Shown here one piece after another: positions 57,349 to 60,003 of a stretch of 64,000 nt of DNA. This DNA is from Maritimibacter dapengensis. GTDB taxonomy: Bacteria; Pseudomonadota; Alphaproteobacteria; Rhodobacterales; Rhodobacteraceae. The notes under the pieces are model-generated. The model worked only from the letters and a program-made list of their open reading frames with translations, searched no databases and was not told where the DNA came from. Position 1 is the stretch's first letter. Each line of letters starts with the position of its first letter. The DNA lies in contig NZ_JAHUZE010000002.1 in assembly GCF_019218265.1 (NCBI RefSeq), positions 868,001 to 932,000 of the forward strand. Direction: 5' to 3'. The position numbers and the translations under genes are program-made.

Positions 57349-59190
57349 CTACTCCTCGTACCACCACGTTTCGGGCATGAACCCCTGCCAATCGCCATAC
57401 ATCGGCAGCCGGTCAGGATACCGAAGCTCCTTGGCGTGGGCGATGCGCGAAATGTCGGCATACCAGAACGGAATGACGTAGCGCCCAGCGGTCAGGATGC
57501 GGTCGAGCGCCTTGGTCGCCGCGAGGCTCTCTTCGCGACTCGTCGCCGAAAGCATCTTGTCGATCATCGCGTCGATGGCCGGGTCCGCGACGCCCATCCA
57601 GTTTCGGCTGCCTTCCTGATCGCGTGACCCCGAGCCCCAATAGAGTTTCTGCTCGTTGCCCGGCGACAAAGACACCGAGCGCCAATAGGAGGTCATGTCG
57701 AAGTCGAACGTATTCGTGCGGTCGGTGTATTGCGCGGTGTCGACCGATGTGATCGTCGGGTCGATCCCCACGCGTTGCAACGCGCCGCGATAGATTTGCG
57801 TGATCTGCCGGTCACGTGTCGGGTCTCGGGTGGCCGTTGGGCTGATGACGATCTCGAAGCTCAGCGGCACGCCGTCGGCGTTCTGCATCACGCCGTCCAC
57901 CGGCTCGTACCCGGCCTCTGCCAGCAGGTCGAGTGCACGGGCCACGCCGCTGCGGTTGCGTTCCGATCCGTCGCCGACGGGCAGGGCGTAACCCTCGATC
58001 GTGCCGGGAAGCAGGTCGTCGGAGAAGGGTTCGAGCAGTTCGGCGACACGCCCCGTCGCAGGTTCGCCGACCTCCATTCCGAGCACGGAGTTTGAAAAAT
58101 ACGATTGGATACGCGGTTCACGTCCACCGTTGAGGGTCTGGTTGATGAATTCGAAATTGAACAGCTCGATCATCGCCTGACGCACGCGCCAGTCGTCGAA
58201 CGGAGCGCGGCGGGTGTTCATCACCAGCCCTTCGATCCCGGTCGGGCGCTTGTGGCTGATCTCGGACAGGACCACATCACCGCTTTGGGCCGAGGGGAAA
58301 TCATAAAGCGTCGCCCACTTCTCGGCGTTGCCTTCGCGGTAGATGTCGGCTTCGCCCGCCTTGAACGCCTCGAAGATCACATCGCCGTCGGCGTAGAAAT
58401 CGTAACGCAACGTGTCGAAATTGGCCTGGCCCTGCATGAACGGTACATCCTTGCCCCAATAATCGGGGTTACGGTTCAGTTCGAGGTATCGGCCCTGTTC
58501 GAAATCGCCAATCACGTAGGGTGAGGAACCGATGGGCAGGACCTCGACGCCGGAGCGTTCGAAATCCAGCCCTTCCCACTGCGCCTTTTTCAGGATCGGG
58601 CGCAATCCCATGATCAGGGCAAGTTCACGGTTGTCGGTGTTGAAGGTGAACTTCACGGAACGCGGTCCGGTCTGCTCCATCGTCTCCACCGCCGACCAGC
58701 TGTTTCGGTAGCGCGGATGCCCGACAGTGCCCAGGGTTTCGTAGGACCACATGACGTCTTCGATCGTGACCGGGCTGCCATCCGAGAATTCAGCTTCCTC
58801 GCGCAGGGTGAATTCAACCCACGTTCTGTCTTCATCAGTATCGACGGTTTCCGCGAGCAAGCCATAGAGCGTGAAGGGTTCGTCGTAGTTCCGTCCGAGC
58901 ATCGATTCGAACAGGACGAAGCGCAATTGCCAGGGTGGTGTGCCCTTGGTGATCACGGGGTGCAGGGAATCGAACGTCCCCGATTCGCCGAAAGTCGCCG
59001 TGCCACCTTTGGGGGCGTCCGGGTTGACCTGTTCAAGATGTTGGTAATCAGCGGGAAGCTCCGGGTCGCCGTACATGGCGATCCCGTGCATCGGTTCCGC
59101 CGACACGGGAGCGGCGAACGCGCCGATTGTGCAGGCGAGCGCGAAAACCCGCATATGTTGGGTGAATTGGGGATATCCTGTGAAGCGCAT
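57349..59190 (-). CDS. Extracellular solute-binding protein family 5 (YejA-like, peptide transport)
   Basis: The 613-aa protein has a signal peptide (cleavage near PVSAEP, residue ~31), then the family 5 fold with GGTATFGESGTFDSLHPVI, LREEAEFSDGSPVTIEDVMWS, a mid region YLELNRNPDYWG and a C-terminal WWYEE. It probably delivers oligopeptides to an ABC permease, as YejA does. No permease or ATPase gene is adjacent. AAGGAG lies upstream of the ATG, with an internal ATG at residue 13 as alternative. Confidence 0.88.
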   Translation of the reverse strand: MRFTGYPQFTQHMRVFALACTIGAFAAPVSAEPMHGIAMYGDPELPADYQHLEQVNPDAPKGGTATFGESGTFDSLHPVITKGTPPWQLRFVLFESMLGRNYDEPFTLYGLLAETVDTDEDRTWVEFTLREEAEFSDGSPVTIEDVMWSYETLGTVGHPRYRNSWSAVETMEQTGPRSVKFTFNTDNRELALIMGLRPILKKAQWEGLDFERSGVEVLPIGSSPYVIGDFEQGRYLELNRNPDYWGKDVPFMQGQANFDTLRYDFYADGDVIFEAFKAGEADIYREGNAEKWATLYDFPSAQSGDVVLSEISHKRPTGIEGLVMNTRRAPFDDWRVRQAMIELFNFEFINQTLNGGREPRIQSYFSNSVLGMEVGEPATGRVAELLEPFSDDLLPGTIEGYALPVGDGSERNRSGVARALDLLAEAGYEPVDGVMQNADGVPLSFEIVISPTATRDPTRDRQITQIYRGALQRVGIDPTITSVDTAQYTDRTNTFDFDMTSYWRSVSLSPGNEQKLYWGSGSRDQEGSRNWMGVADPAIDAMIDKMLSATSREESLAATKALDRILTAGRYVIPFWYADISRIAHAKELRYPDRLPMYGDWQGFMPETWWYEE

Positions 59191-59265
59191 GACTGCCGCC
59201 TCTCCTTTTGAGCTGGAGTTTCAACCGAGCGTAGTGGGCGTTTCTTGCGTTTTCAAACTTTTAGC

Positions 59266-59294
59266 TTGGACTCGCGCAGCACGTTGTCTATATT
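59266..59294 (+). promoter_or_regulatory. Strong sigma-70 promoter of the small RNA candidate
   Basis: TTGGAC (59266-59271) and TATATT (59289-59294) are separated by exactly 17 bases. An A+T-rich stretch (59250-59264) directly before the -35 could be an UP element, which stands out in this G+C-rich window. Confidence 0.7.
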
Positions 59295-59300
59295 GAGATC

Positions 59301-59376
59301 ACTGCTCGATAGGTTTCTTGCCTGTATGAAACCTGCCTCAATGACTGAACGCCGGCCTTGTGCCGGCGTTTTTTTT
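59301..59376 (+). ncRNA. Orphan small RNA candidate (~76 nt)
   Basis: Between the promoter and a perfect terminator there is no open reading frame of note. The predicted transcript would fold a first hairpin (AGGTTTC 59311-59317 with GAAACCT 59328-59334), leave an unpaired GCCTCAATGACTG stretch, and end in the terminator hairpin with eight Ts, which is the form of an Hfq-type small RNA. The terminator has no T-run on the other strand, so it does not serve the neighbouring minus-strand genes. Inferred from signals only. Confidence 0.65.
59348..59376 (+). terminator. Rho-independent terminator of the small RNA candidate
   Basis: AACGCCGGC (59348-59356) and GCCGGCGTT (59362-59370) pair perfectly and are followed by more Ts, giving a run of eight. 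No plus-strand protein gene precedes it for 2 kb. Confidence 0.9.
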
Positions 59377-59391
59377 GACCGCATGAGAGCA

Positions 59392-60003
59392 TCAGACCAG
59401 ATTGAGGACCAGTTTCGCGGCGATCGCGAGCATGACCAGACCGATGATGGCATCGAGGACCTGCCATGCCCGAGGCGCGCTCATCACCGGAGCAAGCAGG
59501 CGGGCGCCATATCCAAGCGAAAAGAAAAACACGAAAGACGCGATCACGGCACCGATGCCGAATGCCAGCCGTAGATGCCAGTCTTCATATTGCGTCGAAA
59601 CCGCGCCGATCAGCCCAAGCGTGTCGAGATAGACATGAGGATTAGCCCAGGTGAACGCCGCCGCAATGGCGAGCGTGCGCCCGAGGGAATGCCCGCGTCC
59701 AGCGATGTTCATGCCTTCGTGGGCTCTCCGCGCCGCCCAGAGACGGCTCAGGCCGTAGGCCGTCAGGAAGATCGCGCCGCCAATGCTCATCACGACGGGC
59801 AGGGCGGGGATCGCTTCGGTCAGGGCACCAAAACCTGCGACACCAGCCGTAATCAGAAGCGCATCGGACCCCGCGCAGAACAGGCAGAGCCAGAATACGT
59901 GTTGATGCAGAAGCCCCTGACGCAGAACGAACGCGTTCTGCGCACCAATGGCCAGGATCAGGGAGAACCCGGTTGCAAATCCTGTGACGGCCGCTCCGGT
60001 CAC
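59392..60003 (-). CDS. LysE/ArgO-family amino-acid exporter
   Basis: The 203-aa protein has about six helices and the LysE start GFSLILAIGAQNAFVLRQGL. ANPHVYLDTLGLIGAVS in the middle is typical of ArgO/LysE. It would export basic amino acids. The GTG start lies in the DUF502 stop (GTGA), so it is translated together with that gene. Confidence 0.9.
   Translation of the reverse strand: MTGAAVTGFATGFSLILAIGAQNAFVLRQGLLHQHVFWLCLFCAGSDALLITAGVAGFGALTEAIPALPVVMSIGGAIFLTAYGLSRLWAARRAHEGMNIAGRGHSLGRTLAIAAAFTWANPHVYLDTLGLIGAVSTQYEDWHLRLAFGIGAVIASFVFFFSLGYGARLLAPVMSAPRAWQVLDAIIGLVMLAIAAKLVLNLV

Follow-up and report, generated by a model that had tools for sequence, protein, structure and literature searches.

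A probable StsR-type small-RNA gene in Maritimibacter dapengensis, conserved across the Rhodobacteraceae and complementary to the dcw leader

The window analysed here, a stretch of 64,000 nucleotides from the genome of Maritimibacter dapengensis (contig NZ_JAHUZE010000002.1, positions 868,001 to 932,000), contains a real small-RNA gene, which we hold with high confidence to be that of an StsR-type trans-acting small RNA acting on the dcw leader. The RNA is conserved far beyond chance, and its nucleotides (nt) 19-36, comprising the loop and the 3' arm of a 5' hairpin, correspond, as read from the letters, to a dcw 5'-leader site in reverse complement. The RNA is of a known kind, StsR, and what is added here is the depth and the sharpness of the conservation of both partners. 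The features of the locus are collected in Table 1.

Table 1. Elements of the small-RNA locus and its flanking genes, in window positions
Feature	Position	Strand	Basis or remark
A+T-rich box TTTCAAACTTTTAG	59251..59264	+	conserved at about -51 to -38, 140 distinct rows
-35 element CTTGGAC	59265..59271	+	TTGG in 124/140, CTTGG in 117/140 distinct rows
-10 element TATATT	59289..59294	+	TATA in 131/140 distinct rows; family consensus TATAAA
Small-RNA gene, very probably StsR-type, predicted 72-76 nt	59301..59376	+	conservation boundary, promoter spacing, family matches, fold z
5' hairpin, nt 10-17 with nt 28-35, 10-nt loop	59310..59335	+	fold, 57-row alignment
nt 19-36, perfect complement of dcw-leader site	59319..59336	+	runs in family mraZ loci
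Intrinsic terminator	59348..59376	+	letters, scan, stem changes in 57 sequences
SBP_bac_5 gene	57349-59190	-	flank of the small RNA, divergent
LysE gene	59392-60003	-	other flank of the small RNA

The gene is an orphan, with no same-strand gene directly upstream and a conserved promoter of its own, and the two flanking protein genes, SBP_bac_5 and LysE, both lie on the minus strand, as an earlier note made from the sequence had stated. The elements which that note had listed are all there in the letters, namely TTGGAC (59266-59271) separated by 17 bases from TATATT (59289-59294), a gene-free stretch, and a terminator with a perfect 9-bp stem (59348-59356 with 59362-59370; 10 pairs by terminator scan) and eight T at 59369-59376; the same holds for the layout of the RNA as hairpin, CCUC-containing linker and terminator. 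Its description of the promoter as near-ideal is too strong for sigma-70, given that TTGGAC agrees with TTGACA at three of six positions; the promoter scan accepted only a -35 element shifted by one base, with nine of 12 matches. Taken alone, neither signal is significant: two promoter-like sites were found in 7 kb against 1.3 in shuffles, and six terminator-like sites against 6.0 expected, so that the significance of the small RNA comes from its conservation and not from these scans.

The conserved CTTGG...TATA pattern fits, with the numbering one base off, the C and the TTG that are described as conserved in R. sphaeroides RpoH promoters in an excerpt of the relevant study (PMC3441632), and it is inseparable from a sigma-70 promoter by sequence. 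The A+T-rich box TTTCAAACTTTTAG on the 5' side of the -35 element is a candidate for an UP-like element or for a site bound by a regulator. Conservation sets in sharply at A59301 in the 142 aligned rows, which makes this base the likely transcription start; the predicted length of 72-76 nt places the 3' end somewhere within the T run, both ends being predictions. The predicted fold of the RNA has an energy of -26.3 kcal/mol (z -4.41), a value equalled by none of 200 shuffles. Conservation, fold and structure statistics together back what the earlier note had proposed, an orphan small-RNA unit that has a promoter and a terminator to itself. The observation of the note is confirmed and its interpretation partly supported.

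The conservation of the RNA in related genomes, which the note had named as a check, was borne out, in that the 76-nt RNA is matched in 384 of 394 family genomes (a sample of approximately one genome per genus), and in 345 of the 347 that are more complete and cleaner. A blastn search with 59225-59395 matched all 37 family genomes searched, the genome itself among them, and returned for 24 other members of the class a single match of 30 bases in the terminator region; in the top 30 of its 38 matches nt 1-40 are identical, and the seven family matches outside these 30 aligned at 83-100% along part of the query. Among named genomes, an exact 33-mer search found at least 118 stretches, and the 80 titles among the matches listed are of Rhodobacterales type (for example Ruegeria, Paracoccus, Sulfitobacter, Roseobacter and Neomegalonema), a few being named only as alphaproteobacteria. 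The invariance of nt 1-33 in these 118 loci follows from their having been picked by an exact 33-mer match; nt 34-40, which are free of that selection, are identical in 142 rows. The conservation profile was built on 142 of 145 rows (148 loci), and the promoter counts in Table 1 on their 140 distinct rows. Of 240 genomes drawn from the class, four matched a 24-mer at up to three mismatches: this genome, two other members of the family, and one in which the match, with three mismatches, is without hairpin or terminator and lies in a region that reads as histidine-biosynthesis coding sequence. The freeze is not absolute, as five genomes that match the small RNA (G024, G036, G090, G133 and G397) are without the exact 15-mer for nt 20-34.

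The two stem-loops of the RNA are conserved in different ways. The structure alignment took in 57 of 105 distinct sequences, being the first 60 minus three removed by hand for their unusual length (L045, L049 and L073), and each of the five measures taken on it went unmatched in 500 shuffles. Seven of the nine pairs of the terminator stem show changes on both sides, and the remaining two deviate only through unpaired cells; in the 5' hairpin all eight pairs are invariant in the 57 rows, an invariance that is partly the result of selection, since 35 of these rows were picked by an exact match to nt 1-33. The two-sided changes in the terminator against the fixed hairpin indicate that the former is kept as a structure and the latter as a sequence. 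Because nt 28-35 have to match two partners, nt 10-17 and the leader, the hairpin is hardly able to covary, and this dual constraint would explain its near invariance. An alternative in which the transcript encodes a very short peptide starts from an ATG at nt 26-28 within the conserved region, and its probability is negligible: after five codons the frame runs into an immediate stop, reaches a stop two codons further on, or is open, as in the row of the window; the alignment reads as containing single-base indels in the linker; and the ATG sits inside the hairpin, with no ribosome-binding site seen before it. On the strength of the alignment, peptide coding was rejected.

The identification as StsR draws on published work on R. 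sphaeroides, where StsR (formerly RSs0827) is described as an orphan RNA of 72 nt that depends on RpoHI/RpoHII and pairs with UpsM and with the dcw leader, the pairing causing a structural change that admits RNase E, which then cleaves (excerpts of PMC8307010, PMC8625941 and PMC11354728). In R. sphaeroides it lowers the expression of cell-division genes in stress and stationary phase. UpsM (formerly RSs0682), which derives from a 268-nt mraZ leader known from R. sphaeroides and other Rhodobacteraceae (PMC5089854, in part), together with the dcw leader corresponds to the partner or target of the small RNA studied here and not to the small RNA itself, and a long mraZ leader of the UpsM type with the pairing site is present in this genome too. 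The RNA of the window resembles StsR in being an orphan of about 72 nt with predicted pairing to the dcw 5' leader and UpsM, and the published change in leader structure resembles the one predicted here. It differs in belonging to another genus, Maritimibacter, and in its setting, this genome having one RpoH over the TIGR02392 cut-off as against two RpoH proteins in R. sphaeroides.

Orthology with StsR is probable, the assignment having been made by behaviour, size and site against the published descriptions, because the letters of StsR were not part of the comparison; the family sample is without R. sphaeroides and its leader, the best identity to RpoE being 78% with PDB chain 2q1z_A as the query, which we take to be the R. 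sphaeroides protein. An identity that rests on behaviour, size and site leaves room for a different, unnamed family-wide small RNA that shares the dcw-leader site without being the StsR ortholog. We regard this as very unlikely, since published StsR pairs with the same leader (excerpts of PMC8307010 and PMC8625941), and exact copies of the 15-mer AGGTTTCATACAGGC are confined in this genome to the small-RNA gene and the dcw leader, so that there is hardly space for a second such RNA. The letters of the RNA core were not found in the literature searched; in the available portions of the small-RNA surveys of Ruegeria pomeroyi and Paracoccus denitrificans (PMC4809877 and PMC5107571) no match to this gene was established; and the StsR literature searched, which lay outside the defining paper, does not use the word Rhodobacteraceae.

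Among the models of Rfam 15 none reaches its gathering score at this locus, and the best match is SorX (singlet oxygen resistance RNA X, RF02784), which covers the full model at 27.4 bits with an E value of 0.00043 for 1501 bases and has the same layout of hairpin, CCUC-containing linker and terminator. Membership of the SorX family is nevertheless highly improbable and was rejected, as the score stays below the gathering score of 46.6 and another locus of this genome, C2:759576-759650, exceeds it with 49.9 bits, which makes it probable that a genuine SorX-type RNA is encoded elsewhere in the genome. The SorX model also gives matches below the cut-off in seven of 14 control genomes. The absence of the window locus from the SorX matches listed is a weak argument, because only 150 of 839 candidates were scored. 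SorX is moreover derived from a 3' UTR, according to the title of Peng et al. 2016 as cited, whereas the gene upstream of the present RNA is encoded on the opposite strand, and the RNA follows a conserved promoter.

Since the R. sphaeroides literature names StsR and describes it as pairing with UpsM and the dcw leader, the small RNA was compared with the dcw leader in 19 mraZ loci of the family and 11 of outgroups. In 16 of the 19 family loci, this genome's among them, perfect complementarity extends at its longest over 15-18 nt; in the other three it extends over 11 nt, over 13 nt and not at all. Every one of the 11 outgroup loci stays below 11 nt. The RNA of this genome is perfectly complementary to its leader along nt 19-35. 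Measured against dinucleotide shuffles, the duplex has a median z of -3.9 for the family leaders (n = 19) and of -0.4 for the outgroup leaders (n = 11), of which a single one stands at -2.9. A strict 18-mer search that excluded the small-RNA gene itself found the site in 129 of 394 family genomes, with none for the reversed control, and in all 12 loci fetched it lies on the sense strand, 179-227 nt upstream of mraZ. The plain 15-mer, counted by hand in the same number of family genomes (n = 394), is present in two or more copies in 218, once in 165 and absent in 11 (this last figure agreeing with the search tally), a count that took in exact matches only and second copies wherever placed, and for which one match was seen with the reversed control. 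With up to two mismatches allowed, the 15-mer occurs at eight places in the genome itself against six for the reversed control, with no excess past the two exact ones. One copy with a single mismatch, at C4:373486-373500, falls in the gap that separates a YbjN gene from its neighbour, which reads as proC, and is within the chance level.

The regulators RNA I and CopA of plasmids are antisense RNAs in which long perfect complementarity involves the stem-loop of the regulator. The present pair is like them in this respect, but differs in that the small RNA and the dcw leader lie apart on the chromosome, so that selection, and not overlap, is what keeps them complementary. The two provide a natural case of unlinked RNA loci that stay complementary over 15-18 nt.

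Structure prediction places the pairing site of this genome's dcw leader inside a domain closed by a long helix, and in the cofolded structure two stretches of the small RNA are paired with it, nt 19-40 and nt 6-14, and the closing helix is lost. The long pairing was predicted for all five of the leaders cofolded (of 19), the joint fold lying 17.6-24.5 kcal/mol under the sum of the separate folds. In two of the five (L196 and L200) the unbound fold has a long closing helix that is gone on pairing, and in the other three the unbound fold is without one. Of the 19 leaders examined, 17 have the main site, and 16 of these carry a further motif, CGAGCAG, 52-60 nt on its 3' side, a count made on related leaders and with no chance control. 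Judged by its letters this motif might make a second contact, with nt 2-8 of the small RNA (CUGCUCG), a contact that is absent from the cofolded structures. In most of these 16 leaders CGAGCAG is followed by ACATCCCCC.

On these grounds a mechanism can be proposed in which a promoter, probably of the RpoH type, would give rise to an RNA of about 72-76 nt ending at the intrinsic terminator, whose nt 19-36 would pair with the dcw-leader site, aided by the 5' end of the RNA. The pairing would, according to the structure models, open the helix that closes the first domain of the leader; by analogy with R. sphaeroides, RNase E might then cut the leader and the leader-made small RNA UpsM, dcw mRNA might drop and growth might slow. 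RpoH control and Hfq binding, like the cleavage, the drop in dcw mRNA and the slowing of growth, are all carried over from that organism. The broader proposal, to which we give somewhat less than an even chance, is that StsR and the dcw-leader site form a division brake throughout the Rhodobacteraceae, with a nearly fixed hairpin and a two-point clamp made by nt 19-36 and by nt 2-8 with CGAGCAG, the hairpin having barely changed for as long as the family has existed, since one of its arms has to pair both within the RNA and with the leader. If this is true, small-RNA control of division in stationary phase, known from one phototroph, would be the rule throughout a family that is large and of ecological importance (roseobacters, Paracoccus, Rhodobacter and others), one open to testing in many organisms, and Rfam and the annotation pipelines would gain a family that they seem to lack.

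The earlier note had also hinted at the adjacent peptide-binding-protein gene as a target. Where 500 or more bases of upstream sequence are available (141 loci, a few genomes being present twice), the divergent neighbour is indeed SBP_bac_5 in 134, but in the sample of 60 loci out of 148 the pairing of the 5' regions of this gene with the small RNA was no better than that of dinucleotide shuffles (median z +0.20, one of the 60 below -2), and seven loci with enough flank have the small RNA without an adjoining SBP gene. That this gene is the main target is accordingly very unlikely, and it was rejected as one; the adjacency is a matter of synteny and no evidence of targeting. A second candidate was rpoE, a published target with which StsR pairs close to the start of the mRNA (excerpt of PMC8307010); this mRNA showed no enriched pairing in 12 relatives (median z -0.15, with two of the 12 below -2, at -2.4 and -2.6), the R. 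sphaeroides pair lying outside this sample; with no excess over shuffles in the 12, rpoE was set aside as a conserved target, which is a further difference from the published StsR. On the other flank, the LysE neighbour is not constant across the loci. Three species of Paracoccus, namely P. versutus, P. ferrooxidans and P. pantotrophus, have the small RNA on very large replicons of approximately 1.5-2.2 Mb that are filed as plasmids.
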